Positions 8,889 to 38,097 of a stretch of DNA of 44,935 nucleotides are shown here, piece after piece. Numbering within the stretch: position 1 is the first letter of the stretch; the number at the start of each line of letters is the position of its first letter. The translations under genes and the position numbers were made by a program. Source of the DNA: an uncultured Pelagibacteraceae bacterium (lineage in GTDB: Bacteria; Pseudomonadota; Alphaproteobacteria; Pelagibacterales; AG-422-B15); contig CABYDZ010000009.1 of assembly GCA_902517885.1 (NCBI GenBank), forward strand, positions 1 through 44,935, written 5' to 3'. A model generated the notes under the pieces. That model searched no databases. It saw only the letters and a program-made list of their open reading frames with translations, and was not told the origin of the DNA.

Positions 8889-9807
8889 TATAGCAAATAC
8901 AAAAATAGATTTCTTAAAATCAAGAATAATCACGTTTATATTTTCATCTATATTAGTAGTTTTATCCTTTGGAGCTTTTTTTGTAAGTGGGTTAAACTTT
9001 GGCATTGATTTTAAAGGTGGAACATTAATTGAAATTGAAACTGAGAATGAAATAGAAATTGCAGGACTAAGAGATAATCTTAATTCTCTAAGTTTAGGGG
9101 ATGTTCAAGTTCAGGAATTTGGATCAAAAAATAATTTGTTAATCAGAGTTGAACAACAATCAGGCGGTGACCAAATTCAACAAAATGTTGTCGAGATTGT
9201 AAAGACTAGTCTAAATTCATACCTTTCATCTGAAGTTAATTTCAGAAGAACAGAGGTAGTTGGTCCAAAAGTTAGTGGTGAATTGATACAATCTGGCGCT
9301 ATAGCAATATTGGCTGCAGTATTTGCAATGCTAATTTATATTTGGTTTAGATTTGAGTGGCAATTTTCTCTTGGAGCTGTTGTTGCTTTAATTCACGATG
9401 TAATTTTAACCATAGGCGTATTCAGTATCACTCAGTTAGAATTCAATCTTCCAATCATCGCAGCAATTCTTACAATAGTTGGTTACTCAATGAATGATAC
9501 CGTAGTTGTTTATGATAGAGTCAGAGAAAACTTGCGTAAGCACAGATCTAAAAATATTATAGATCTACTAAATCTATCTATTAATGAGACATTATCGCGT
9601 ACAATTGTAACATCGGTGACAACATTACTTGCCTTATTATCATTATTTATTTTTGGCGGTGAAGTGATCAAAGGATTTACCTTTGCAATGATATGGGGCG
9701 TAGTGGTTGGAACGTATTCATCAATTTTCGTAGCTGCGCCACTTTTAAACTATTTAGATGTTAAGAGAGAATGGAATACAACTTCCGCAGTTGATTCAAC
9801 TCGTTAG
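8881..9807 (+). CDS. secF: Protein translocase subunit SecF
   Basis: Partner of SecD. 308 residues with an N-terminal helix, the FGIDFKGGTLIEIE motif (about 40-53) and six predicted membrane helices. GYSMNDTVVVYDRVRENLRKH near residue 200 is the SecF signature containing the conserved Asp. The start overlaps the end of secD, implying coupled translation. It ends 2 bp before the stop of the convergent minus-strand gene, with no terminator hairpin visible between them. Confidence 0.96.
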   Translation: MIDIANTKIDFLKSRIITFIFSSILVVLSFGAFFVSGLNFGIDFKGGTLIEIETENEIEIAGLRDNLNSLSLGDVQVQEFGSKNNLLIRVEQQSGGDQIQQNVVEIVKTSLNSYLSSEVNFRRTEVVGPKVSGELIQSGAIAILAAVFAMLIYIWFRFEWQFSLGAVVALIHDVILTIGVFSITQLEFNLPIIAAILTIVGYSMNDTVVVYDRVRENLRKHRSKNIIDLLNLSINETLSRTIVTSVTTLLALLSLFIFGGEVIKGFTFAMIWGVVVGTYSSIFVAAPLLNYLDVKREWNTTSAVDSTR

Positions 9808-9809
9808 AT

Positions 9810-10421
9810 TTAATATAAATTTTGAGCTGCAACCATCGATAACAGCATAGGAATTGATAACAATGTATTTGTTCTTGAGAATAGCATTGCAGTTCTAGCT
9901 GATTTTGCTTTTGTATCGGCATCAACTTCTACAATACCAAGCGCTTTTTTTTGATTAGGCCAGATGACCATCCAAACATTGTACGCCATAATTATTGCAA
10001 GCCACATGCCTATGCCGATTGTAAGTTGCTTACCGTCAAATCCATATGCCAAGGTGAATGTAAGTGCGTTAATAGATCCCTCATGACCATAATATAATCC
10101 AAGAGTTGTTAATCCTGTGATGAGAGTTGCCATGGCCGCCCATCTGAACCAAAACAAGGCCGCAGGAGCTATAACTTTTCCAATAGCAGGCTTTTGTTCG
10201 TCAGGAATATTCGGCATGTTTGGAATTTGAACAAAATTAAAATAGTAAAGCAAGCCAATCCACATAACTCCAGAGATAACATGAAGAAATCTAGATAAAG
10301 AAGCCCAATAGAGCTGATCAAATCCACCATAATGGCCAGTAATCATGATTAATAAGGCTACTGCAAGCAGTGAACCTGTAAGTATTGTCTTTGGAAGTGA
10401 TTGTAATATCGAAGCCATCAT
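9810..10421 (-). CDS. PuuD-like (urate hydroxylase N-terminal domain) membrane protein
   Basis: 203-residue integral membrane protein with about five hydrophobic helices. It resembles the membrane part of PuuD-type urate hydroxylases (Urate_ox_N family): RFLHVISGVMWIGLLYYFNF (about 43-62), then a soluble loop rich in Pro, then APAALFWFRWAAM. Histidines in or near helices (His30, His47) could bind haem, by inference. Full-length PuuD continues into a C-terminal cytochrome c domain, but no CxxCH motif is present here. The substrate is therefore unknown and urate activity should not be assumed. No other purine catabolism gene is in the window. Confidence 0.6.
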   Translation of the reverse strand: MMASILQSLPKTILTGSLLAVALLIMITGHYGGFDQLYWASLSRFLHVISGVMWIGLLYYFNFVQIPNMPNIPDEQKPAIGKVIAPAALFWFRWAAMATLITGLTTLGLYYGHEGSINALTFTLAYGFDGKQLTIGIGMWLAIIMAYNVWMVIWPNQKKALGIVEVDADTKAKSARTAMLFSRTNTLLSIPMLLSMVAAQNLY

Positions 10422-10460
10422 ATGATATTTAACACGAATTTTATCACAGGCAAATATATT

Positions 10461-13298
10461 TTATCTCAGAATTTGTTTTAAGTACTGGCCTGTATAACTT
10501 TTCTTTATTTTTGCTATCATTTCTGGTGATCCAGATCCTACAATTTCACCTCCACCATCACCACCCTCAGGGCCTAAATCGATGATCCAATCAGCCGTTT
10601 TAATCACATCTAAGTTGTGTTCAATTACGACTACCGTATTTCCTTGCTCTACTAATATTTGCAATACTTCCAAAAGTTTTTTGATATCATGAACGTGTAG
10701 ACCAGTAGTGGGTTCATCTAATACATATAAAGTTTTACCTGTGGCTCTTTTTGAAAGTTCTTTTGATAATTTGATTCTTTGAGCCTCACCTCCTGATAGA
10801 GTAGTTGCTTGTTGGCCAATTTTAATATAACCAAGACCCACATTCTGAAGCGTGATTAATTTATTTTTTATCATTGGTATTGCGTCAAAGAACTTACAGC
10901 CTTCATCTACTGTCATGCTTAAAATATCAGCTATGCTTTTATCTTTGTATTTTATTTCTAGGGTTTCTCGATTGTATCTCTTGCCTTCACATTCATCACA
11001 GGTGACATATACATCAGGAAGGAAATGCATTTCAATTTTGATAACGCCATCTCCCTCGCACGCTTCACAGCGCCCACCTTTTACATTGAAAGAAAATCGA
11101 CCAGGTTTGTAACCTCTTGCCTTAGACTCGGGCAATCCTGTGAACCAATCTCTAATGAATGTAAAAGCGCCGGTATAAGTAGCCGGGTTAGATCTTGGTG
11201 TTCTTCCAATAGGTGATTGGTCAATGTCTATTACTTTATCTAATTCGCTAAGGCCTTTTATTTCTTTATGCTTAGCAACAGTGTGCCGTGATCCATTCAG
11301 ACTCTGAGCAATTGATTTATACAATGTATTTATTGTAAGAGTTGATTTTCCACTTCCCGATACTCCAGTAATACATGTGAGCGTACCAAGAGGTATTTCA
11401 CAGCTTACATTTTTTAGATTGTTCCCACTTGCATCCACGATTTGTATATATTTTTCTTCCAGAGCAGTTCTACGTTTCTTTGGTATTTCAATTTTAAGTT
11501 TTCCTGATAGATACTGACCGGTGATACTATTTTTATTTTTCTTGATTTGTTTTACATCACCTTCAGCTACAACTTTTCCTCCATTTACTCCAGCTGCTGG
11601 ACCAAGGTCAACAATATGATCAGCCGTTGTGATTGCCTCTTCGTCGTGCTCTACAACAATTACCGTATTTCCAAGATCTCGAAGTCTTTTAAGAGTTTTG
11701 ATTAATCTTTCATTGTCTCTCTGGTGAAGTCCAATAGAGGGCTCGTCTAATACATACAGCACGCCGGTTAATCCAGACCCTATTTGAGAAGCCAGTCTAA
11801 TTCTTTGTGACTCCCCACCTGACAAGCTCCCAGATCCACGTGAAAGAGTTAAGTATTCAAGGCCAACATTATTTAAGAATAATATTCTTTCATTCAATTC
11901 TTTTAGTATTCGGTAGGCTATTTCCTTTTCTTTTTTTGTTAGTTTTTTCTCAAGCTTTCCAAACCACAAGAGCAATTCCTTTATTGATTTATCACAGACT
12001 TCGCCAATATGAAGTTTATCAATTTTTACAGCAAGAGCTTCTTCTTTTAATCTAAATCCTGAACAAGGTTCACATTTCACTTCGCCCTGATACCTTTCAA
12101 TTCTCCCTCGCATCCAATCACTTTCAGTTTCAAGAAACCTTCTTTCAAGATTATTTATGACACCCTCAAAAGATCTCTCGTATTCATATCCATCGTCATA
12201 AGTAAACTTAAGTTCTGTATCACCTGATCCGTAGAGAACAATATTTTGAATTTTTTTACCAAGATTTTTCCATGGCGTATTAAGTGAGAATTTGTATTTT
12301 CTAGATACAGTTTCAAGAATATTTCGAAAATAACCATATTTTGAAACTGGCCAGGGAGCTAAAGCGTCCTCATTGATTGATAAGTTTTTATTGGGGACAA
12401 CAAGATTTGGATCGATTGAAAGATCTGTTCCAATTCCATCGCATTCAGCACAAGCACCAAAGGGATTATTAAATGAAAAAAGTCTTGGCTCAATTTCATC
12501 TATAGTGAAACCTGAAACAGGGCATGCAAATTTTGATGAGAAAAGATCCTGGTTAGGTTTCTCAGATTTTTCGTTAACGTCCTCAATAATAACCAGTCCA
12601 TCAGATAGATTTAAAGCAGTCTCAACACTATCCGCCAACCTGTTTCCAATGTCATCGCTTAGAACAATTCTATCTACAACAACTTCAATATTATGTTTCT
12701 TTTTTTTGTCGAGGTTTGGAAGCGAGTCAAACTCATATATTTCTCCATCTATTTTAACTCTTTGAAATCCTTTTTTTTGCAGTTCTTGCAATTCTTTACG
12801 ATATTCACCTTTTCTACCTCTAATAATTGGTGATAAAATTAAAAATCTTGAACCAATTTTTCTATTATTAATTTGATCTACAATTTGAGTAACGGTTTGA
12901 CTTTTAATTGGAAGTCCGGTTGCAGGTGAATAGGGCACTCCAATACGTGCAAATAATAATCTTAGGTAATCATAAACCTCTGTAACAGTTCCCACTGTTG
13001 ATCTCGGATTTTTAGAAGTTGTTTTTTGCTCAATTGAAATGGCAGGACTCAGTCCTTCAATCAAATCAACATTAGGCTTTTGCATCATTTGAAGGAATTG
13101 TCTTGCATAAGCTGAGAGACTTTCGACGTATCTGCGTTGACCTTCGGCATAAATCGTATCGAATGCTAACGATGATTTACCTGAACCAGAAAGACCTGTG
13201 ATAATAGTAAGTTTTTCTCTAGGTATTTTTACGTTAATATTTTTGAGATTGTGCTCTCTTGCTCCCTGAACTGAAATATTTTTGTTCATATTCTTCAA
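10461..13298 (-). CDS. uvrA: Excinuclease ABC subunit A
   Basis: DNA-damage sensor of nucleotide excision repair, 945 residues with two ABC ATPase modules. The first Walker A is GLSGSGKSS (about 34-42), the second GVSGSGKST (about 641-649), each with an LSGGE signature ([20 protein letters not shown]). The second zinc module (CEACEGDG ... CDECEGK) is complete. The first reads CPVSGF ... CAECDG, so one of the four cysteines seen in E. coli is Ser, a variant I associate with Alphaproteobacteria. ATG at 13298 is used; a second Met three codons on is also possible. It is divergent from ssb, a common arrangement. Confidence 0.97.
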
Positions 13299-13398
13299 TT
13301 AATCCTAATGGTCACTATTTAAAGATATCCTGTGAATAAAGTTATAGAATAGCCTTTTTTTATATACACTTACTTATTAACTAGTTAAATTAGTTTTT

Positions 13399-13857
13399 AT
13401 GGCTTCCAGTCTCAACAAAGTAATGCTTATTGGTAACATAGGAGCAGATCCTGTAATCAGGCAAACACAGGATGGAAAAAGATTGGCGCAATTAAGTCTA
13501 GCTACGTCAGAGTCTTGGAAAGACAAGTCAACTGGTGAGAAAAAAGAAAAAACTAGCTGGCATAGAATAGTTATATTTAACGATGGTTTAGCAGGCGTTG
13601 TTGAGAGTTATGTTAAGAAAGGCTCAAAGCTGTATATAGAGGGACAATTACAGACTAGAAAATTCACAGATCAAAATGGTAATGAAAAATACACGACAGA
13701 AGTAATCTTGGGTAACTATAATGGTACATTAACCATGCTAGATTCTCGTGGCTCAGGAAGTTCTGAATCAATTTCTGATATGTCTTCCGACATGAATCAA
13801 GAGGCTATGGATTCATCCCCAGCAGACATTGATATCGACGATGAGATCCCTTTTTAA
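13399..13857 (+). CDS. ssb: Single-stranded DNA-binding protein
   Basis: Coats single-stranded DNA in replication, repair and recombination. 152 residues: N-terminal OB fold (about 1-110; LNKVMLIGNIGADPVIR and WHRIVIF are family marks), a flexible linker rich in Ser/Met/Asp, and the acidic tip ending DDEIPF, which binds partner proteins. It lies between uvrA (divergent, 100 bp gap, shared promoter region) and gyrA, a conserved alphaproteobacterial order. Confidence 0.96.
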   Translation: MASSLNKVMLIGNIGADPVIRQTQDGKRLAQLSLATSESWKDKSTGEKKEKTSWHRIVIFNDGLAGVVESYVKKGSKLYIEGQLQTRKFTDQNGNEKYTTEVILGNYNGTLTMLDSRGSGSSESISDMSSDMNQEAMDSSPADIDIDDEIPF

Positions 13858-13891
13858 GAAGAATTTTTAATTCGAAAAACATACTTTTTTC

Positions 13892-13900
13892 TGCTATAAT
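13892..13900 (+). promoter_or_regulatory. Putative extended -10 promoter of gyrA
   Basis: TGCTATAAT (13892-13900) is an extended -10 element with a perfect TATAAT. No good -35 is seen, which fits an extended -10 promoter. It would start transcription near 13907 and give a leader of about 70 nt containing a short hairpin CCTAG-TTTT-CTAGG before the gyrA start. Prediction from consensus only. Confidence 0.45.
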
Positions 13901-13978
13901 TTCATATATTTTTATAACAATTTAATGGCTATTTTTCCTAGTTTTCTAGGGAATATATCCTTCCTATAGGTTTTAAAT

Positions 13979-16684
13979 TTGAGTGATTCTAAAGATCAAA
14001 ATGAAGATCTGAAAACGCCTAAAGAGCAATCAATTATACCCATACTAATTGATACAGAAATGCAGAATTCATATTTGGATTATGCAATGAGTGTGATTGT
14101 CAGCAGGGCATTACCTGATGTTAGAGATGGACTAAAGCCTGTTCATCGCAGAATATTATATGCCATGCATGAGTCAGGCTATGAATGGAATAAGCAACAC
14201 AGGAAAAGTGCAAGAGTAGTAGGAGATGTAATCGGCAAATATCATCCTCATGGAGATCAGGCAGTCTACGATGCACTTGTAAGACTAGCTCAGGATTTTT
14301 CTATGAGCGCTACACTTATTGATGGTCAGGGCAACTTTGGCTCAATGGATGGAGATAAAGCAGCTGCAATGCGTTACACAGAAGTGCGCATGGCAAAGAT
14401 CTCAAGTTTTCTTTTAGAAGACATTGAAAAAAACACAGTAGAGTTCAGGCCTAATTATGATGAGACAGAGAGTGAGCCAACAGTTCTACCTGCAAAGTAT
14501 CCGAATTTATTGGTAAATGGAGCTGGGGGTATAGCTGTAGGCATGGCTACAAATATCCTACCTCATAATTTAGGAGAGGTTGTTGACGCATGTAAGGCAT
14601 TTTTAGAAGACGATCAAATTTCCTTTGAAAAAATAAATCAAATCATTAAGGGACCAGATTTTCCAACTGGTGGAACGATAATAGGAACCAGTGGTATTAA
14701 AGCTTCTCAATCTACAGGAAGGGGTTCCATCGTAGTTCAAGCCAAGTCGATGATTGAAGAGTTTAAAAATGACCGTGAAGCTATTATTTTCACTGAAATT
14801 CCTTATCAAGTTAACAAATCAGTCTTATTAGAAAAAATAGCTGAATTAGTACGAGATAAAAAAATAGAAGGTATTAGTGATTTGAGAGATGAGTCAGATC
14901 GCCAAGGTGTCCGAGTTGTTGTTGAGTTAAAAAAAGGCGTCATCGCTCAGGTTATACTTAATAAACTTTATAAGTTTACTTCATTGCAGAGTTCTTACGG
15001 AGTTAATTCTTTAGCCTTAACAAACGGAAAGCCAAAACTGATGAACATAAAAGAGTTCATTCATCATTTTGTACACTTTAGGAAAGAGATTATTTCAAAT
15101 AGGACAAGATATGATTTATCTAAAGCAAGAGACCGCGCTCACACTTTAATCGGGCTTGCAATAGCAGTAGCAAATGTTGACAGCATAATAGACATTATAA
15201 AATCCTCAAAAGATCCAAATGAAGCTAAGACATCTTTACTGAAAACTAAATGGAAGACAAAAGATATAATCGATCTACTCAAAATTGTAGATGACCCTAG
15301 ACAGGTGAAAAATGATAAAGAAGTTTATCTCACAGAGGAGCAAGCTAAAGCAATCTTAGAATTAAGACTTCAACGCCTTACGGCACTAGGAAAAGATGAG
15401 ATAAAAGTTGAATTATCAGAATTATCAAAAAAAATTGGATATTTCTTGTCAGTGCTCAAAGATAACAGCGTATTGAAAAAGGTAATTAATGACGAATTAG
15501 ATTCAATCAAAGAACAGTTTGATGTTCCACGTCGTACAGAAATAAAAGAAGGCGAAGCATCCGAACTCGATCAAGAAGATTTAGTGCAACGAAGTGATAT
15601 GGTTGTAAGTGTGACTAATTCTGGCTACATAAAAAGAGTCCCATTAAATATGTACAGAGCCCAGAAAAGAGGCGGTAAGGGTAGAGCTGGCATGAAGACA
15701 AATGACGAAGACTTTGTGACTCAAGTTTTTACAGCAAGCACTCATGACAATATGCTCTTTTTTACTTCTAGTGGAATAGCATTCAAGCTCAAAACTTGGA
15801 AAATACCGGAATCTTCTCCTCAAGCAAAAGGTAAAGCAATTGTAAATCTATTGAACCTTAAAGAAAAAGATAGGCTTTCAAGTATCCTGGTCTTACCAGA
15901 AATGAAAATGGACAAAGAAAGTGATTTTCTAGTCTTCGCTACAGCAGACGGCAGTATTAGAAAAAACAGTCTAGAAGATTTTAAACGCATACAAGCAAAT
16001 GGTAAAATTGCGATGAAGCTTGCTGGCGACAATAGTATAGTTGGAGTAAAACTATGTACCAATGATGATGATATACTTCTTACAACAAAATTTGGAAAAT
16101 GCATTAGGACACCTGTTACAAAACTTAGAACTACAAAAAGCAGGACGTCAACGGGTGTAAGGGGGATTAAGTTAGTCAAGGGAGATGAAATTATTTCTAT
16201 TTCAGTCATCTCGCACACAGATACTACTTCAGGTGAGTCAAAAGCTTTTTTGAAAATGCGTTCTAAAGAAAAAGATAATGATGATCATATCGATAGTGAT
16301 GACAGTGAGAGCGATGTTTCTGAAGCGGAAGTAAAGTTGAGCAATGAACGTTACGATGAAATGAAGGCTAAAGAACAGTTTATTTTAACGCTCACAGAAA
16401 ACGGTTTTGGAAAACGCTCTTCTTCATATCAATTCAGAATATCAAACAGGGGCGGATCAGGTATTATGTGTATCGCTACATCTGATAGAAATGGAAATGT
16501 CCTAGCATCGTTCCCTGTCAACGATGACGATGACATAATGCTAATTACTAAATCTGGACAAGTTATTCGCTGTCCTGTTAAGGACGTTAGGGTAGCAGGA
16601 AGAAATACGCAGGGCGTTAGTATATTTAAAACTAATGATAATGAAAAAGTTGTTTCAGCATCAAGAGTTGAGATAGATAACTAA
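13979..16684 (+). CDS. gyrA: DNA gyrase subunit A
   Basis: Cuts and rejoins DNA in gyrase to introduce negative supercoils. 901 residues. Catalytic tyrosine is Tyr133 in AAMRYTEVRM. The quinolone region reads HPHGDQAVYDA: Gln94 sits where E. coli has Ser83, and Asp98 matches Asp87. The GyrA box for DNA wrapping is QKRGGKGRAG near residue 561, so this is GyrA and not ParC. An acidic insert (about 762-785, rich in Asp/Ser/Glu) interrupts the C-terminal beta-pinwheel. The start is TTG at 13979: no in-frame ATG lies before conserved sequence, and a weak TATAGG precedes it. Confidence 0.95.
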   Translation: MSDSKDQNEDLKTPKEQSIIPILIDTEMQNSYLDYAMSVIVSRALPDVRDGLKPVHRRILYAMHESGYEWNKQHRKSARVVGDVIGKYHPHGDQAVYDALVRLAQDFSMSATLIDGQGNFGSMDGDKAAAMRYTEVRMAKISSFLLEDIEKNTVEFRPNYDETESEPTVLPAKYPNLLVNGAGGIAVGMATNILPHNLGEVVDACKAFLEDDQISFEKINQIIKGPDFPTGGTIIGTSGIKASQSTGRGSIVVQAKSMIEEFKNDREAIIFTEIPYQVNKSVLLEKIAELVRDKKIEGISDLRDESDRQGVRVVVELKKGVIAQVILNKLYKFTSLQSSYGVNSLALTNGKPKLMNIKEFIHHFVHFRKEIISNRTRYDLSKARDRAHTLIGLAIAVANVDSIIDIIKSSKDPNEAKTSLLKTKWKTKDIIDLLKIVDDPRQVKNDKEVYLTEEQAKAILELRLQRLTALGKDEIKVELSELSKKIGYFLSVLKDNSVLKKVINDELDSIKEQFDVPRRTEIKEGEASELDQEDLVQRSDMVVSVTNSGYIKRVPLNMYRAQKRGGKGRAGMKTNDEDFVTQVFTASTHDNMLFFTSSGIAFKLKTWKIPESSPQAKGKAIVNLLNLKEKDRLSSILVLPEMKMDKESDFLVFATADGSIRKNSLEDFKRIQANGKIAMKLAGDNSIVGVKLCTNDDDILLTTKFGKCIRTPVTKLRTTKSRTSTGVRGIKLVKGDEIISISVISHTDTTSGESKAFLKMRSKEKDNDDHIDSDDSESDVSEAEVKLSNERYDEMKAKEQFILTLTENGFGKRSSSYQFRISNRGGSGIMCIATSDRNGNVLASFPVNDDDDIMLITKSGQVIRCPVKDVRVAGRNTQGVSIFKTNDNEKVVSASRVEIDN

Positions 16685-16727
16685 TAAATTACTAGAGCTA
16701 AAATAATATTCGATATATAGTCCAGTC

Positions 16728-17207
16728 ATGAACAGAACCGGCATATACCCTGGAAGTTTTGACCCTATTCACAAGGGACATATAGATATCATTAATAGAG
16801 CCACAAAACTCGTGGATAAGCTTTATATTGCAGTTGCGGATAGCCCGCATAAAAAACCTTTATTCAATTTAGACGAAAGAAAAGAAATGATTGATGAGGA
16901 ATTTTCGAGCAATAGTATTATTGAAGTTATTGCATTTGATAATCTTTTGATTGATCTTGCTAATTCATTAAATGCTGAAATTCTTATTAGAGGTTTAAGA
17001 GTAGTTTCAGATTTCGAATATGAATTTCAAATGTTAGGCATGAATAGACAACTTGACTCAAAGATTGAAACAGTTTTTTTAATGGCTGATGCACAGCGAC
17101 AATCCATTTCGTCAAACTTTGTAAAAGAAATTGCGCGCTTAGGTGGAGATATTAGCAATTTTACTAATAAGTTTGTAGAGAACAAACTTAAAGATAAATA
17201 TAAGTAA
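16728..17207 (+). CDS. coaD: Phosphopantetheine adenylyltransferase
   Basis: Penultimate step of coenzyme A synthesis: joins ATP and 4'-phosphopantetheine to give dephospho-CoA. 159 residues, normal for the family. Nucleotidyltransferase motif GSFDPIHKGH is at residues 9-18 (HxGH = 15-18); RGLRVVSDFEYEFQM (about 88-102) and the C-terminal ISSNFVKEIA motif (variant of ISSTxVRE) complete the active site. It follows gyrA by 43 bp and is 2 bp ahead of the cyclophilin gene. Confidence 0.96.
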   Translation: MNRTGIYPGSFDPIHKGHIDIINRATKLVDKLYIAVADSPHKKPLFNLDERKEMIDEEFSSNSIIEVIAFDNLLIDLANSLNAEILIRGLRVVSDFEYEFQMLGMNRQLDSKIETVFLMADAQRQSISSNFVKEIARLGGDISNFTNKFVENKLKDKYK

Positions 17208-17209
17208 GA

Positions 17210-17761
17210 ATGAATTTTATAAAGATTATTTTTTCTTTATTTTTTTTAATAACAGCAGTTAATGCAGAAGGAGAATACATGTTTAAAGATCCTGAAAATA
17301 CTATTCAGATTGAACTAACAAGCGGAAACGTAATAATAGAGTTAATGCCAGACATTGCACCCAACCATTCAACAAGGATTAAAGAACTTGCAAGAGAAGG
17401 TTTTTATGATGGAGTTCCCTTTCATAGGGTAATTGAAGGTTTTATGGCACAAACAGGTGATGGAGAAAATAGAAATGGAACAGGCGGTTCCGATAAACCT
17501 GATTTAAAAAATGAATTTAGCAATACTTCTCATTTAAGAGGTACTGTTTCAATGGCAAGAACTGCTGATCCAGACTCTGCTAACAGCCAATTTTTCATTT
17601 GCTTTGATGCGGCTCCTCACTTAGACGGACAATACACTGTATTCGGACAAGTAATTGAAGGAATGGAGTTTGTTGATGGCTTGAAAAGAGGTGCGCCTGG
17701 ATCTGGGACCGTAGATGATCCTGATGAAATGGTTTCAGTAAAGGTTCTTGCCGATCTTTAA
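17210..17761 (+). CDS. Exported cyclophilin-type peptidyl-prolyl isomerase
   Basis: Speeds cis-trans isomerisation at proline bonds. 183 residues. A hydrophobic N-terminus (about 1-19, cleavage after NAE or VNA) predicts export to the periplasm. The cyclophilin domain carries FHRVI, FMAQTGD, the GTVSMART segment and NSQFFICF, that is, the catalytic Arg and substrate-pocket residues. The loop after the domain is short, as in bacterial PpiA/PpiB. It lies between coaD and queA with gaps of 2 and 3 bp, a conserved alphaproteobacterial cluster. PpiA (periplasmic) or PpiB cannot be decided from sequence alone. Confidence 0.92.
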   Translation: MNFIKIIFSLFFLITAVNAEGEYMFKDPENTIQIELTSGNVIIELMPDIAPNHSTRIKELAREGFYDGVPFHRVIEGFMAQTGDGENRNGTGGSDKPDLKNEFSNTSHLRGTVSMARTADPDSANSQFFICFDAAPHLDGQYTVFGQVIEGMEFVDGLKRGAPGSGTVDDPDEMVSVKVLADL

Positions 17762-17764
17762 GCA

Positions 17765-19886
<2,122 letters not shown>

Positions 19887-33770: not shown

Positions 33771-33905
33771 ATGAAAAAAGAAAACTTACCATCTAAAATA
33801 TGTCCCGTATGCAATAGACCTTTCAACTGGAGAAAAAAATGGAGATTGAACTGGGGTCGTGTTGTTTACTGCTCAAAAAAATGTGCAGGAATTAAAAAAA
33901 ATTAA
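33771..33905 (+). CDS. DUF2256 family small zinc-ribbon-like protein
   Basis: 44-residue protein starting ATG 33771 and stopping TAA 33903-33905. The sequence KICPVCNRPFNWRKKW (residues 9-24) followed by VVYCSKKCAG (31-40) matches the DUF2256 pattern: CPxCxRPFxWRKKW, then YCSxxC. Four cysteines (11, 14, 34, 38) could bind one zinc. Function of the family is unknown. The gene is easy to miss because of its size. It ends sharing TTAA with the convergent dehydrogenase gene and is divergent, by 19 bp, from the DUF1543-like gene. Confidence 0.85.
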   Translation: MKKENLPSKICPVCNRPFNWRKKWRLNWGRVVYCSKKCAGIKKN

Positions 33906-34861
33906 ACAATGTTTCTTTTTTTACCTTTATAAAAGGAATTTATATTTTCTATTAATTGATTAATTGCTTTTTGAAGTGTTTCTCGTGATGCCCACGCAGT
34001 ATGAGGTGTCCAAATAAAATTAGATTTATTTAAAATGCTATAATAAGCGTGAGATGAATGAGGTGGCTCCTTAGATGTTACATCTATTCCTGCCCCCGCA
34101 ATAATCTTGCGTTTCAATGCTTTTGTTAAATCAATTTCATTAACAATACCACCTCTAGCAGTATTTATTAGAATTAAGTTTTTCTTCATAATTCTTAATT
34201 CTTTCATTGTAATGAGGTCTTGCGTGCTACTATTTAGCGGACAATGTATAGAAAGGTAGTCAAGTGATGAAATGAATTTTTTAAAATCATTCTTTTTATA
34301 ATTTCTAACTGAAAAAAATTTAGTATTCATTCCAAATGCTTTTGTTAATCGTCCAACTTTTAAACCGATAGAACCTTTGCCGATAATCCCCATTGTCTTG
34401 CCGTACAAGTCATTAATTTCTCTACTTAGTAATGCAAATACTTTTCTTTTTTGCCAAAGCTTATTGTTAATATCATTTTCAAGGCCTTTAATATTTTTGG
34501 ACAGTGTCAGCATGAGTGTTAATACGTGCTCAGAAACAGAAATAGAGGCATAATCTATAAGATTACAAACTGAAATATTATTTTTCTTGCAATAATCTAA
34601 GTCAATTATATTTGTACCTGTCGCTGTTATAGCAATGAGTTCTAATTTTTTTGCATGAACTAAATTAGATTTATTCAGTTCTATTTTGTTTGTAATAATT
34701 ATATTTGCATTTCTAATTCTTTTGCTGACATCTGAGTTTTTCGTAAAATTATATGTTTTCCATGAATGATTGAATTCAATCTTGGGTAACAAACAGTTTT
34801 TTGGAAATGTTGATCTATCAAGAAATACTATTTTTTTTTTCATATTTAATTTTAATAACAT
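33902..34861 (-). CDS. D-2-hydroxyacid dehydrogenase, glycerate dehydrogenase-like
   Basis: NAD(P)-dependent oxidoreductase interconverting 2-keto and D-2-hydroxy acids. 319 residues. Dinucleotide motif GKGSIG is at 161-166. Catalytic residues are Arg236 (NTARGG), Glu265 (SKEPP) and His287 in TPHTAWAS; this HxAWAS ending is typical of hydroxypyruvate/glycerate dehydrogenases. The first six residues before Met7 may be dispensable. It is the last conserved metabolic gene before the accessory region. The exact acid (glycerate, glyoxylate or other) is not certain. Confidence 0.87.
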   Translation of the reverse strand: MLLKLNMKKKIVFLDRSTFPKNCLLPKIEFNHSWKTYNFTKNSDVSKRIRNANIIITNKIELNKSNLVHAKKLELIAITATGTNIIDLDYCKKNNISVCNLIDYASISVSEHVLTLMLTLSKNIKGLENDINNKLWQKRKVFALLSREINDLYGKTMGIIGKGSIGLKVGRLTKAFGMNTKFFSVRNYKKNDFKKFISSLDYLSIHCPLNSSTQDLITMKELRIMKKNLILINTARGGIVNEIDLTKALKRKIIAGAGIDVTSKEPPHSSHAYYSILNKSNFIWTPHTAWASRETLQKAINQLIENINSFYKGKKRNIV

Positions 34862-34958: not shown

Positions 34959-35735
34959 ATGTATAAATTAATAGCATCATTATCCCTATTGATATTTATT
35001 TCTTCAAACGCTCATGCTGGTAAGTTAGAGAAAGGAGAAGTCTATTCAGGGGAAATAAAAAAAGTTGAGCATTATTTATATAATCTCAACTTACCAAAAG
35101 GTGATTGGGAAGTATTTGGAATAGATAGAATTTTATCACACAATAATGAGTCATATATTATATTAGGGCAAATCATTGAAAATGAGTTGTCAGCAATAAT
35201 TTGGTTGGATTTCATTACAGATCCGAGTGAATACGGGTGGTATACTCCCGATAGTTCAGTCTGCAATGATTGGGAAGACCAGAATTCAAATTATCATAAA
35301 TCAACCTACAAAAGAAAGCTTGCTAACGCAGTTAGTAAAGGCTCCTGCATCTCTGTATGGGTTGATAATGATATCTATGAGGGCTCTTATGACTGGGCTG
35401 ATGAATTTGAGCAAGCTAAGAATAAATTAAGAAGTAGAAATATTGAATTACCAAGTGCAATACTTTGGATCGATCAACTCTTAATTACTAAAGAGGCTTA
35501 TGCAGGTATCTTCATTGGAATAAATCCAAAACATAATGCCGACATTTATACAAGAAGTAGAATTGGATATACATACAGTGAATGGCACTCATATAATATT
35601 GATAGCTATGAAAGAAAAAAAAATTATATGGATAAAGCTATCAATGCATCTAAAGCCATGAACGAACAAAATTATAAAGCTCTAGAAAAAAGAAAAGTTA
35701 TGGATCTACGCTTCATCGATCGATTGTTGAAATAA
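34959..35735 (+). CDS. Secreted protein of unknown function (YSG-type family, member 1)
   Basis: I do not recognise a named family. 258 residues with a clear signal peptide (about 1-20, cleavage AHA/G). The mature start KLEKGEVYSGEIK, followed by LPKGDWEVFG (about 48-57), is shared with the next gene (KLEKNNTYSGTIK, LPPGEWLL), so they are paralogues. Rich in Trp and Tyr; two Cys near 97 and 124 could form a disulfide. The C-terminal RKVMDLRFIDRLLK is echoed in the frameshifted neighbour as LDLRFFDQV. First gene of the accessory segment, 97 bp from the divergent dehydrogenase gene. Confidence 0.7.
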   Translation: MYKLIASLSLLIFISSNAHAGKLEKGEVYSGEIKKVEHYLYNLNLPKGDWEVFGIDRILSHNNESYIILGQIIENELSAIIWLDFITDPSEYGWYTPDSSVCNDWEDQNSNYHKSTYKRKLANAVSKGSCISVWVDNDIYEGSYDWADEFEQAKNKLRSRNIELPSAILWIDQLLITKEAYAGIFIGINPKHNADIYTRSRIGYTYSEWHSYNIDSYERKKNYMDKAINASKAMNEQNYKALEKRKVMDLRFIDRLLK

Positions 35736-35759
35736 TATAAATTTTAAGTAAACTGAAGT

Positions 35760-36287
35760 ATGAAAAAATCTCTTACTAAGATACTTGTTTCAGTTGTCAT
35801 TTTATTTTCACTAACACTTTCTGCAAACGCATTAAAATTAGAGAAAAATAATACTTATTCGGGAACCATTAAGGATAGCAATAGAAATAATATTCCATTA
35901 CCTCCTGGAGAATGGTTACTAACAGAAAAAAATATTAATAAGCCTAAAGGAAGATCATTAGGAAGTTTCGTTGAGTATACCTTTTATAATTCTGATGTTG
36001 GGTATGTCTTTTATTATGGCCCTAAGGGAACTAAAGGTTCAGCAGATATGTGGGTTGGACGTAAAACCCCATCAGTGTGTGATGGAAGCCCCATAGCTGG
36101 CAAGACTAAAATAAGAGGAATAAATAATACTGAGTGGTGCGTTTTTGATGATGGCGAATACATAGAATTTAGAAATTATACAGCTCAAAATTTTAGTTCA
36201 TATTATCATGCATACTATATAGATAAGATACTCTTAAGAGATACATCAAAATCAACAATACAATCAATTGGATCTCAGATTTTTTGA
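35760..36287 (+). CDS. Secreted protein, N-terminal part of a frameshifted gene (member 2)
   Basis: 175 residues, unknown function. Signal peptide about 1-24 (cleavage ANA/L), then KLEKNNTYSGTIK and LPPGEWLL as in member 1. Two cysteines (about 102 and 121) again look like a disulfide pair. The frame closes at 36287 right after HAYYIDKILLRDTSKSTIQS, while the expected continuation, LDLRFFDQV, is in the +1 frame (next entry). Dropping one base within 36238-36287 would give a 307-residue protein ending in a SHOCT-like tail. Frameshift, pseudogene or sequence error cannot be told apart here. Confidence 0.6.
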   Translation: MKKSLTKILVSVVILFSLTLSANALKLEKNNTYSGTIKDSNRNNIPLPPGEWLLTEKNINKPKGRSLGSFVEYTFYNSDVGYVFYYGPKGTKGSADMWVGRKTPSVCDGSPIAGKTKIRGINNTEWCVFDDGEYIEFRNYTAQNFSSYYHAYYIDKILLRDTSKSTIQSIGSQIF

Positions 36288-36684
36288 TCAGGTAACGAAA
36301 AATAAAGCTGGTGATTTAAGTTTCTTATCAAATCGTATAGATCTTAATAAGTCTTCATCATTTACAAGCAATTATACAAGCGATTACTCTAGTCAAACTG
36401 AAAGTAAATATCAATCATTATCTAATAAAGAAATCTGTATAAAAGCTACTAAACTAGATGGCTCTGGATGGATGCCTTCGCATAGTAATGATCATGTAAA
36501 AGAAGCATGGTCAAGAGATTTAAATATAAATGAATGTCGTGTTTTGACAGGTAGAAAAATTGGAAAAAAGGATAATAGTAGCTTAAAAGATAAGCTTATC
36601 GAATTAAAGTCTCTATTAAATGAGGGATTAATTACACAGGATCAATTTGATAAAAAAAGTAACGAGATATTGGATTCATATTAG
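36268..36684 (+). CDS. C-terminal part of the frameshifted gene, with SHOCT-like tail
   Basis: 138 codons from a TTG; probably not an independent gene but the rest of the preceding one in the +1 frame. It begins LDLRFFDQVTKNK, matching the end of member 1 (MDLRFIDRLLK). A Ser-rich linker follows, then a region with two Cys, then about 30 residues LKDKLIELKSLLNEGLITQD...ILDSY, which fit the SHOCT pattern (short helical hairpin, GLIT-xxxF). SHOCT tails are thought to mediate oligomerisation. The stop TAG is part of the first TAGGACCA word next to the direct repeat. Confidence 0.5.
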   Translation: MDLRFFDQVTKNKAGDLSFLSNRIDLNKSSSFTSNYTSDYSSQTESKYQSLSNKEICIKATKLDGSGWMPSHSNDHVKEAWSRDLNINECRVLTGRKIGKKDNSSLKDKLIELKSLLNEGLITQDQFDKKSNEILDSY

Positions 36685-36700
36685 GACCATTATAGGACCA
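36682..36700 (+). repeat. Paired TAGGACCA words, 11-bp period
   Basis: TAGGACCA occurs at 36682-36689 and 36693-36700, separated by TTA, 8 bp before the left 138-bp repeat. The layout equals the TGGTGACA pair before the right repeat, but with another word. Helical-period pairs beside an attachment site resemble arm-type binding sites of tyrosine recombinases; this is inference. Confidence 0.5.
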
Positions 36701-36708
36701 CTCCTCAT

Positions 36709-36846
36709 CAAAAAACCCCTTAAACCAAAACCTTAGCTCCATAAAAAAATAGATGTAAACTGTTGAGAAATAGTCTATTTTGCATTTTCTATTAATCGCG
36801 GATATGGTGGAATTGGTAGACACGCTGGTTTTAGGTACCAGTGAGG
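36709..36846 (+). repeat. 138-bp direct repeat, left copy
   Basis: Identical base for base to 37924-38061, offset 1215. It begins CAAAAAACCCCTTAAACC and ends ACCAGTGAGG. Bases 36709-36797 correspond to DNA upstream of tRNA-Leu, presumably including its promoter, and 36798-36846 to the first 49 nt of the tRNA. Read as the left attachment-site copy (attL) of an inserted element. Confidence 0.92.
36798..36846 (+). pseudogene. tRNA-Leu(UAG) 5' fragment
   Basis: First 49 nt of the tRNA-Leu gene: acceptor strand GCGGATA, D arm, full anticodon stem-loop with TAG, and the first side of the variable arm. After 36846 the sequence leaves the tRNA (GTACATAACG) and no T arm or acceptor partner follows. 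Since the upstream DNA is also duplicated, the fragment could still be transcribed. Confidence 0.9.
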
Positions 36847-36913
36847 GTACATAACGTAAGTAAAGTCATTTCAATTACTTATAGTTAATATTTAATAACA
36901 TTATCTGCTATTT

Positions 36914-36930
36914 GTGACACCATGGTGACA
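36914..36930 (+). repeat. Paired GTGACA words, left end of element
   Basis: GTGACA at 36914-36919 and 36925-36930, 11-bp period, spanning GTGACACCATGGTGACA, preceded by ATTATCTG. The same arrangement (ATTATCTG followed by paired GTGACA) recurs at the right end, in the same orientation. Confidence 0.55.
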
Positions 36931-36972
36931 CTTCTTAATTAAAATAATAATAGTTATAGGGTATGATTACTC

Positions 36973-37407
36973 ATGAAAAAGATATTAATTATATCAATAT
37001 TTTTATTTACTTTCAGTGCAAACATAAATGCTAAAGAAATTTCATGTGATTTTCATTTTAAGGAAGTGCAGATTAAAATAGGTGGCTTAGATTTGCCGTA
37101 TACTTATGATGTGTATTCATTTTCGTTGCGTTTTAATAGCATGGAGCAAAAAATAAAAAACATAGTAGATATTTATTTCGAAAAGCCTGTCAATGACATT
37201 ATAGATGAATTCAATAATGTTCAAACAGAATTTGTACAAAATATATTCTATAATGATAATCTAAGTGAAAATGAGAAATCAACTCTTAAATTTTTTCATT
37301 ACTTAGGATCAGAACTATCAGGTGAACGTTATACAAGTCAAAATTTAAATTCATTCCATAAAGCGATTTTAAAAACGCCTGATGATGAAAAAAAAAGAGA
37401 TAATTAA
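36973..37407 (+). CDS. Secreted protein, N-terminal part of a frameshifted cargo gene
   Basis: 144 residues, family not recognised. Signal peptide about 1-20 (cleavage INA/K), then ISCDFHFKEVQIKIGGLDLP with one Cys, and a mostly acidic, Asn-rich remainder. The frame ends in TPDDEKKRDN because of an A9 run (37388-37396). Loss of one A (or gain of two) would fuse it to the next frame and give a 301-residue protein with a SHOCT-like tail. It does not share the KLEKxxxYSG motif of the genes left of the repeat. Only gene start carried by the putative element. Confidence 0.55.
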   Translation: MKKILIISIFLFTFSANINAKEISCDFHFKEVQIKIGGLDLPYTYDVYSFSLRFNSMEQKIKNIVDIYFEKPVNDIIDEFNNVQTEFVQNIFYNDNLSENEKSTLKFFHYLGSELSGERYTSQNLNSFHKAILKTPDDEKKRDN

Positions 37408-37879
37408 TGCTATTATGTCAATGAGTACGTTTAGTATGAGTAAAATGATTGAAGATACTTCTTATATATTCGAAGACATGAAAAGTCCAATGGAATTAGA
37501 TTTTATAAAAAGTATAAATAGAATAATGAATGATAATTTTGATCAAGAATTCCTAGATGGATCATTTAGTTCAAATGGAAGAAGGACTTTCGAAGGCATA
37601 ACAGATAACGGGGTTGCTATTAATTTTAAGATAAATGATAACGTATTGAATTCGGATAAAAAGTTCTATGATGCTGTGAAAATAAAAGTTTATGGTTTCG
37701 ATAATAAAGGCGAAGGTATTAGCATGTTAGTAAGCGGTGATTGTATTTTGGATGAATTTATTGAAGATAAAAGCGACTCTAAGAGCAGACTTATAGAGTT
37801 AAAATCGTTATTAGATGAGGGGTTAATATCACAAGATCAATACGACTTTAAAAGTTCTGAAATCTTAAATGACTTATAG
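37382..37879 (+). CDS. C-terminal part of cargo gene, with SHOCT-like tail
   Basis: 165 codons in the +1 frame relative to the preceding gene, overlapping it by 26 nt at an A9 run. No signal peptide and no clear RBS, so it is most likely the continuation of that gene. The middle (FSSNGRRTFEGITDNGVAI) is of unknown fold. The last 32 residues, SRLIELKSLLDEGLISQDQ...ILNDL, closely parallel the tail at 36580-36681 and fit SHOCT. The nucleotide sequences of the two tails differ a good deal, so they are not a recent copy of each other. Confidence 0.5.
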   Translation: MMKKKEIINAIMSMSTFSMSKMIEDTSYIFEDMKSPMELDFIKSINRIMNDNFDQEFLDGSFSSNGRRTFEGITDNGVAINFKINDNVLNSDKKFYDAVKIKVYGFDNKGEGISMLVSGDCILDEFIEDKSDSKSRLIELKSLLDEGLISQDQYDFKSSEILNDL

Positions 37880-37896
37880 GCATCTTACTAATTATC

Positions 37897-37915
37897 TGGT
37901 GACACTATGGTGACA
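37897..37915 (+). repeat. Paired TGGTGACA words, right end of element
   Basis: TGGTGACA at 37897-37904 and 37908-37915, separated by CTA, 11-bp period, 8 bp before the right 138-bp repeat. Spacing to the repeat equals that of the TAGGACCA pair at the left repeat; the word equals that at 36914-36930 in its GTGACA core. Confidence 0.55.
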
Positions 37916-37923
37916 AACCTCAA

Positions 37924-38061
37924 CAAAAAACCCCTTAAACCAAAACCTTAGCTCCATAAAAAAATAGATGTAAACTGTTGAGAAATAGTCTATTTTGCAT
38001 TTTCTATTAATCGCGGATATGGTGGAATTGGTAGACACGCTGGTTTTAGGTACCAGTGAGG
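37924..38061 (+). repeat. 138-bp direct repeat, right copy
   Basis: Perfect copy of 36709-36846. Here the tRNA part continues past 38061 into a complete tRNA-Leu. Identity stops in the variable-arm loop (GTGAGG, then CAACTC against GTACAT), so the exchange point lies at or before this base, possibly in the anticodon stem-loop, whose arms CTGGT/ACCAG are a natural dyad. Confidence 0.92.
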
Positions 38062-38097
38062 CAACTCATGGGGGTTCGAGTCCCTCTATCCGCACCA
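38013..38097 (+). tRNA. tRNA-Leu(UAG)
   Basis: 85 nt with encoded CCA. Acceptor GCGGATA pairs with TATCCGC; anticodon stem CTGGT/ACCAG encloses loop TTTAGGT, anticodon TAG (reads CUN Leu codons); long variable arm GTGAG-GCAA-CTCAT; T arm GGGGGTTCGAGTCCCTC. Its 5' 49 nt and 89 bp of upstream DNA are duplicated 1215 bp to the left. It lies 13 bp before tig. Confidence 0.97.

Follow-up and report, generated by a model that had tools for sequence, protein, structure and literature searches.

A 1215-bp unit without a recombinase at a Pelagibacteraceae tRNA-Leu gene, and a family of related elements probably mobilised in trans

The DNA analysed here (the window) is a 44,935-nt stretch from an uncultured Pelagibacteraceae bacterium of the order Pelagibacterales. 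A complete tRNA-Leu(UAG) gene in its right-hand part is preceded by a 1215-bp unit that is marked by two copies of a 138-bp repeat, and this is in turn preceded by a further block of cargo genes and a dehydrogenase gene on the opposite strand. The features of the region are as follows.

33902..34861, minus strand: D-2-hydroxyacid dehydrogenase gene, the conserved left flank, which adjoins the tRNA gene in empty sites.
34959..36684, plus strand: cargo of one or more older upstream elements; the last ORF ends in a SHOCT-like segment.
36682..36700, plus strand: repeat pair TAGGACCA-TTA-TAGGACCA at the right end of the older upstream element.
36709..36846, plus strand: left 138-bp repeat (attL), comprising the older element's right end and tRNA-Leu nt 1-49, recognised by identity and by the right-end motif.
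36719-36738: right-end motif of the older element, inside the left 138-bp repeat.
36798..36846, plus strand: displaced tRNA-Leu fragment, nt 1-49.
36810..36816, plus strand: presumed 7-bp overlap (tRNA nt 13-19) in attL, placed from the second-site junctions described below.
36869..36881, plus strand: IHF-like site TTTCAANNNNTTA in the conserved left-end segment, agreeing at 8/9 consensus positions.
36914..36931, plus strand: left direct-repeat pair with 11-bp spacing (GTGACAC-CATG-GTGACAC), putative integrase arm sites.
36973..37407, plus strand: first part of the cargo ORF, small and secreted-looking by eye, with no Pfam or PHROG match.
37382..37879, plus strand: second part of the cargo ORF, in another frame than the first, with a C-terminal SHOCT-like segment (E 7e-4, below the curated cut-off).
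37897..37915, plus strand: right direct-repeat pair with 11-bp spacing (TGGTGACA-CTA-TGGTGACA).
37924..38061, plus strand: right 138-bp repeat (attR), recognised by identity and comprising the element's right end, the element-borne upstream region and tRNA nt 1-49.
37934..37953, plus strand: conserved right-end motif CTTAAACCAAAACCTTAGCT.
38013..38097, plus strand: tRNA-Leu(UAG), rebuilt and complete.
38025..38031, plus strand: presumed 7-bp overlap (tRNA nt 13-19) in attR.

The sequences at 36709-36846 and 37924-38061 are identical over all 138 bp, the match ends abruptly on both sides, and the repeat-to-repeat spacing is 1215 bp. A complete tRNA-Leu(UAG) (anticodon TAG) is called solely at the right copy, at 38013-38097; in the left copy the tRNA sequence runs through nt 49 and then gives way to unrelated DNA. 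Exact identity and tRNA calling thus confirm the duplication, with its one complete tRNA on the right, that the original prediction had described. The G+C content of the 1077 bp between the repeats is 27%, compared with 34% for the window. A search for the repeat elsewhere, which had been proposed as a check, finds only these two full copies in the window's own genome (85% complete) and partial copies in other genomes. Ten of the partial copies, three of them from a single inverted contig of genome G038, end at the same base (query position 138, which is tRNA nt 49), and further ones end elsewhere, for example at 115 (twice), 100, 139 and 146. Since partial copies in other genomes end at an identical base, the repeat is neither a chance match nor the artefact of one assembly.

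The identity takes in the 89 bp ahead of the left tRNA fragment as well, since the left copy doubles as the right end of an older element. Where a single tRNA fragment lies beside the native flank, as in G013, G010, G025 and G049, the DNA upstream of the fragment is native, and the stretch common to both copies measures 90-132 bp, at 86-94% identity. The length of 138 bp in the window therefore reflects the same element-borne upstream DNA in both copies, and the element adjoining the tRNA is the newest of the array.

The cargo of the unit consists of the ORFs 36973-37407 and 37382-37879, which overlap and are read in different frames. This layout is consistent with one split gene, as had been predicted together with a secreted product, the secreted look being a judgement by eye. 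The split lies at a run of A (37382-37407) and could represent a frameshift, a sequencing error or programmed slippage. Beyond the SHOCT-like tail, the split gene has no homologue in the loci that were fetched, and searches with PF00589 and Pfam find no recombinase within the unit, in keeping with the earlier claim. The older cargo at 34959-36684, for which no left tRNA fragment is recognisable, resembles at the DNA level the cargo at a second insertion site in other genomes (77% over 749 bp in G026 and 76% over 611 bp in G011), and some cargo families are thus common to both sites.

The tRNA/tig junction was searched for in 43 genomes of the genus, of which 30 (window included) are readable upstream of tRNA-Leu, the 13 without a readable upstream region being dropped. 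A site was scored as empty where a match to the divergent D-2-hydroxyacid dehydrogenase starts 81-88 bp from the tRNA, and on this basis 17 of the 30 sites are empty and 13 contain inserts. The junction therefore exists both empty and with other contents, and is not the fixed arrangement that the original prediction had named as telling against it; the empty and differently filled sites also rule out an assembly artefact or a tandem duplication as the origin of the repeat. A second tRNA fragment is kept in eight of the 13 inserts (window, G043, G013, G038, G025, G010, G028 and G049). In G012 and G029 the insert shows the right-end motif and lacks a recognisable left fragment; G035, G048 and G050 show neither feature, and their inserts may be of another kind. 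Lengths of eight tRNA-Leu elements are 1187-3692 bp, with two restriction-type ones at about 9-10 kb. The closest relatives of the window on a tig tree, G017 and G019, are both empty, and the filled state requires seven changes on that tree, four of them forced by well-supported branches, with some clustering (23 of 500 shuffles are as low). The right-end motif, with <=3 mismatches, lies near tRNA-Leu in members of the family's three other genera (G007, G008, G051 and G052), and in G001 the motif precedes a further tRNA fragment. These comparisons show the 1215-bp unit to be one member of a family of elements.

We also note that right-end motifs with 2 mismatches are present upstream of tRNA-Pro and tRNA-Met, with other DNA in between (L046 on contig C37 of G043, and L077 on contig C7 of G044); these are possibly further target sites or remnants. 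Contig C12 of G038 (L050) bears the tRNA-Leu locus and its cassettes twice, in inverted arrangement, and is probably an amplification chimera; this genome was counted once.

The cargo varies from genome to genome. SHOCT-like tails are present in the window, G038, G035 and G011 (by Pfam, below the cut-off) and in G001 (by similarity), trypsin-like proteases in G028, G038 and G043, subtilases in G012 and G043, an SPFH protein in G013, and MORN repeats in G010 and G013. The cargo of G049 comprises a type I restriction system together with YgjP-like and PLD-like proteins, and has a relative in G028. These two restriction cargoes align in two long pieces at 90% and 96%, and the core genes at 93-95%; as the cargo is no more alike than the core genes, a recent transfer is not supported. 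No recombinase or transposase is found by Pfam among 41 cargo ORFs, several of which match nothing.

Some of the cargo is large and of surface type, including subtilases of 1094 and 1067 aa (the upstream unit of L044 in G043, and L049 in G012) and a 1972-aa autotransporter with Ig-like domains at the second site of G049 (L147). Between L056 (G028) and L057 (G049) the methylase and restriction subunits align at 90-96%, and the specificity subunit fails to align over most of its length, which looks as though it had been swapped.

A second site, which is not a tRNA gene, is an 11-12-bp gap between genes that we take to encode quinone-oxidoreductase-like and pterin-dehydratase-like proteins. It was fetched from 36 of the 43 genomes and not from the other 7, and 3 of the 36 are without a readable flank. 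Among the 33 readable genomes, 22 are empty, 9 have an element-type left junction, which has diverged in two (G026 and G030), and 2 are otherwise filled. At the left junction the tRNA sequence is present from nt 20 onward (TAGACACGC...); both junctions are visible in G013 and G043, and at the right one the tRNA sequence reaches nt 12 (ATATGGTG in G013; changed in G043). The 7 bp between the tRNA parts match the empty second site in part only. Second-site inserts of G049, G048, G034 and G039 fit the same junction frame, and those of G026, G030 and G011 show no readable right junction.

Because tRNA sequence extends to nt 12 on one side of these junctions and starts from nt 20 on the other, strand exchange most likely occurs within tRNA nt 13-19, in the D arm. 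In the restriction elements that G028 and G049 carry at the tRNA gene, the tRNA fragment is kept only as far as nt 26. A crossover in the anticodon loop, implied by the original prediction, is rejected from the second-site junctions, which carry tRNA sequence only to about nt 12 on one side and only from nt 20 on the other; we see no way in which exchange in that loop would give such junctions. The prediction was right that the element brings along both an upstream region and the tRNA's 5' part, but its proposal that the anticodon arm comes with the element fails: given a crossover at nt 13-19, the working tRNA would keep the host's anticodon arm, and the element would contribute no more than the upstream region and some 12-19 nt at the 5' end.

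The second site also bears on whether site-specific recombination is needed at all. Precise junctions recur there in different lineages, yet the empty site shares little sequence with the element, and this is hard to reconcile with spread by DNA uptake or transduction followed by homologous recombination between repeats or flanks, in which the site-specific look would be historical. Such a route would gain from flanks and repeats that are long enough for homologous exchange and from tandem arrays with shared ends, and we nonetheless find it scarcely credible as an account of these loci.

The ends of the elements are built to a common plan. Left ends have ~60 bp in common, containing an IHF-like site, and then a repeat pair ~65 bp past nt 49; at right ends the repeat pair lies ~115 bp before the tRNA and is followed by the motif CTTAAACCAAAACCTTAGCT. 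Scored against what we assumed to be the IHF consensus, the IHF-like site agrees at 8/9 positions in 10 of 11 left ends, a figure that is suggestive only, as the 11 ends are homologous and 8 is also reached in 12% of trials with a shuffled left end.

Exact pairs at 11-bp spacing are present in 17 of 22 element-end windows, compared with 0-3 of 22 at the other spacings (6-10 and 12-21); these end windows were tested after the pairs had been spotted by eye, and they come from 11 elements that were chosen for a recognisable left tRNA fragment and are related, not independent. Two of the elements, G013sec1 and G013sec2, are tandem units of one array; the left window of G013sec2 contributes one of the 17 pairs, which is off-position and unlike the rest, and its right window is longer than the others, this right end having no motif. 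Five of the 22 windows have no exact pair, and the tRNA-Leu element of G013 lacks one at either end. In all six elements with exact pairs at both ends the left unit is the same as the right unit, and all six units are different, an end-matching expected by random pairing in 1 of 720 cases. When 13 whole inserts were scanned for pairs of >=7 bases containing all four letters, these were found only at end positions, with the exception of two in G049, one of which is just past the restriction genes; six inserts contain none. The sequence GTGACACNATGGTGAC is present in 1 of 53 genomes of the family, only here, and the pattern BTGACACTATRBTGACAC has 7 matches across the order (397 genomes), every one of them within these arrays.

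Internal repeat pairs (TTGACACTATATTGACAC) at gene boundaries, with no tRNA fragment, are seen in L057 (G049), ~1.57 kb upstream of the tRNA, and at 12349-12366 of L048 (contig C4 of G013), suggesting fused cassettes whose inner att sites may have been lost.

Matches to PF00589 are present in 41 of the 43 genus genomes, mostly as one or two proteins of 302-325 aa (two proteins in 30 genomes, one in 10, three in one and none in two), and no PF00589 match or remnant lies in the loci described here in any of the 43. The window's genome owes its extra PF00589 protein to a separate satellite (L109), and one of those in G038 lies in another region (L111). Movement of the cassettes by a host recombinase, XerC/XerD or another chromosomal enzyme, could draw on the ~302-325 aa proteins, which are the only tyrosine recombinases regularly present and which we call Xer from their number and size. 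A host enzyme would favour one fixed sequence, however, whereas the arm-like pairs differ between elements, and pairs of this type occur beside P4-type integrases, so that a host recombinase is a very improbable agent.

The arm-binding domain of P4-type integrases, PF13356 (Arm-DNA-bind_3), is found in 5 of 397 genomes of the order. An 11-bp-spaced pair lies <=400 bp upstream of all five P4-type integrase genes, compared with 0-2 of 5 at other spacings, and in four of the five elements the far end, by eye, bears the element's own upstream unit; L185 has no matching far pair in the 19.9 kb fetched. The pairs of the cassettes are like those beside these integrases, and since the same type of pair accompanies five of five such genes, the pairs are most simply arm sites of P4-type integrases, and the cassettes would be substrates that lack an enzyme of their own. 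That a repeat pair at both ends may mark elements with P4-type integrases is our own observation and not a published rule. The window element has the 11-bp pair at both ends, as four of the five P4-type elements do by eye, and differs from them in having no integrase of its own.

No helper with matching repeats, and none specific for tRNA-Leu, was found in the host genomes or in six scans of viral contigs. The pattern BTGACACTATRBTGACAC has 15 matches in viral contigs, of which 3 are at integrase-like genes (L189, L190 and L202, the L190 gene matching PF00589 below the cut-off only), 8 are in one recurring sequence unrelated to integrases, and 4 have no integrase nearby. No helper emerges either when viral contigs are scanned for the right-end motif, for the junction of tRNA fragment and left end, for the upstream region or for relatives of the L109 integrase, and in phage records the relatives of the L109 integrase are only distant, at <60% identity. 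Candidates that were rejected include 10 viral contigs with tRNA 5' sequence, which hold complete phage tRNA genes; the L109 integrase of the window's own genome, which has other repeats (GGTGTAAA) and targets tRNA-Thr; and L111 of G038, where two integrase-like ORFs share a contig with tRNA-Gly and matching pairs of the 11-bp type are absent.

The L109 element (9050-18400, contig C1) is a ~9-kb satellite-like element that encodes a P4-type integrase and a primase-like protein and splits the host tRNA-Thr(GGT) in the anticodon loop. A pattern spanning the intact tRNA-Thr anticodon arm is matched in 10 of the 43 genus genomes, and the four matches tested are all tRNA-Thr(GGT) by ARAGORN. By eye, the element carries just before its integrase gene a tRNA-like replacement whose GGT loop is similar and whose T loop is odd; it is called by neither ARAGORN nor Rfam, and recalls what is reportedly termed 'tRNA-dependent lysogeny'.

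A likely scenario is that the 1215-bp unit is a cargo-only, site-specific integrative element that is recombined in trans by an arm-binding P4-type tyrosine integrase. The unit would span 36817 to 38031 if the overlap is assigned to the right side, and would circularise and integrate at the D arm of tRNA-Leu(UAG), using an att site whose 7-bp overlap is tRNA nt 13-19. Integration would rebuild the tRNA gene and supply it with a new upstream region and 5' part. The end repeat pairs would then be arm sites, bound most probably by the N-terminal domain of an integrase that a co-resident or infecting phage or satellite provides in trans, and the repeat sequence would decide which helper moves which cassette; cassettes of this kind would still be moving.

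An alternative is that the inserts are decayed remnants, CIMEs in the strict sense, which lost their integrase by deletion and are now immobile and shuffled by homologous recombination between repeats. Had the inserts decayed independently, some integrases should survive intact or half-broken, yet PF00589 finds no integrase or remnant in any insert of the genus loci; the uniform plan, in which cargo begins close behind the left repeat pair, and the matching of repeat units between the two ends of an element also tell against decay. The same reading has on its side that attL and attR without an integrase fit the CIME definition, that several ends are worn (the left fragment of G013, the missing left fragments of G012 and G029, and the right junctions of G026, G030 and G011, which are not readable), and that gene conversion could maintain the 138-bp identity of the window. 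We consider decay unlikely, and prefer mobilisation in trans, as the original prediction had suggested. More tentatively, and at somewhat less than even confidence, the integrase-free D-arm cassettes may form a separate class of mobile unit in which the end-matched repeat is an 'address' that picks a phage or satellite integrase; streamlined ocean bacteria would then keep open an integron-like locus without the cost of a recombinase.

Obvious mobile elements are scarce in marine bacteria with streamlined genomes, and in the present set only 5 of 397 genomes have a P4-type integrase. A cassette of one gene plus ~300 bp of end sequence, moved by a foreign integrase, would be a cheap route to gene gain, and the element-specific repeats predict which integrase acts on which cassette, which makes the question of the helper testable. 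Integron gene cassettes consist of one to few genes between recombination sites, form arrays at one locus and are moved by a recombinase encoded by another gene. The cassettes described here are like them in having few genes between sites, in forming arrays and in a recombinase located elsewhere, and differ in att sites that lie in a tRNA gene and in arm-like repeats.

CIMEs, in the part of the account available to us (PMC5704250), keep attL and attR, have neither integration nor transfer genes and accrete in tandem at one site. Flanks of attL and attR and tandem accretion are seen here too, and integration genes are absent by PF00589 and by Pfam on 41 cargo ORFs. A CIME also descends by deletion from an ICE or IME and is mobilised in cis once it has accreted with a functional element; no integrase-bearing sibling or integrase remnant of the cassettes was found with PF00589 in the 43 genus genomes, and no functional partner at the site. 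Compared with the CIMEs of that partial account (PMC5704250), the present elements form an entire family of minimal cassettes, the smallest holding about one gene, with a 5'/D-arm crossover and with pairs that are matched between the ends of an element and different between elements.

Islander genomic islands, as far as the available part of the source describes them (PMC4383910), have tDNA and a displaced tDNA fragment marking their ends and form tandem arrays, as here. They comprise 3760 islands with 3' fragments and 159 with 5' fragments, with crossovers in the anticodon loop, the T loop or the T/acceptor junction, and candidates without an integrase or <2 kb are rejected by design (PMC4383910); the window element, in contrast, is a 5', D-arm element of 1.2 kb without an integrase. 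Island finders that require an integrase, as in the Islander rule (integrase present, >=2 kb; PMC4383910), overlook such cassettes.

The pTN3-like archaeal elements, in the portion of PMC8371274 at hand, have attB in the 5' half of tRNA-Leu, and the rebuilt tRNA gets a new promoter, as appears to be the case here; unlike the cassettes, these elements are archaeal and have their own integrase. Such promoter replacement is described there as seldom met in bacteria (PMC8371274). The D loop has already been raised for this archaeal enzyme, as one possible cleavage place of the pTN3-like integrase (PMC8371274), and a crossover in the D arm would add a subsite to the bacterial anticodon, T-loop and 3'-end sites that the available parts of both sources list (PMC4383910, PMC8371274).

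Tycheposons, known to us second-hand from part of PMC10872708, are cargo-carrying, tRNA-bordered elements of streamlined aquatic bacteria, as are the elements here. They are given as 4-200 kb long and marked by a tyrosine recombinase (PMC10872708), whereas the cassettes are about 1-10 kb and no tyrosine recombinase was found in them; the 1215-bp unit falls outside that length range, and the two restriction-type elements (about 9-10 kb) fall within it. The Dehalococcoides ssrA islands, in the part of PMC3146451 available, include 15 without an integration module that lie in tandem at one RNA gene, which is similar to the arrangement here, and these 15 are discussed as possible cis-mobilizable elements. 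They differ from the cassettes in using a serine recombinase and the tmRNA 3' end, and in having 16 siblings with an integration module (PMC3146451). Among the literature matches listed, which lie largely outside the subscription literature, none describes the present elements. Our best reading is that the 5'/D-arm site and the end-matched repeats set these cassettes apart from the CIMEs and integron cassettes that they resemble.
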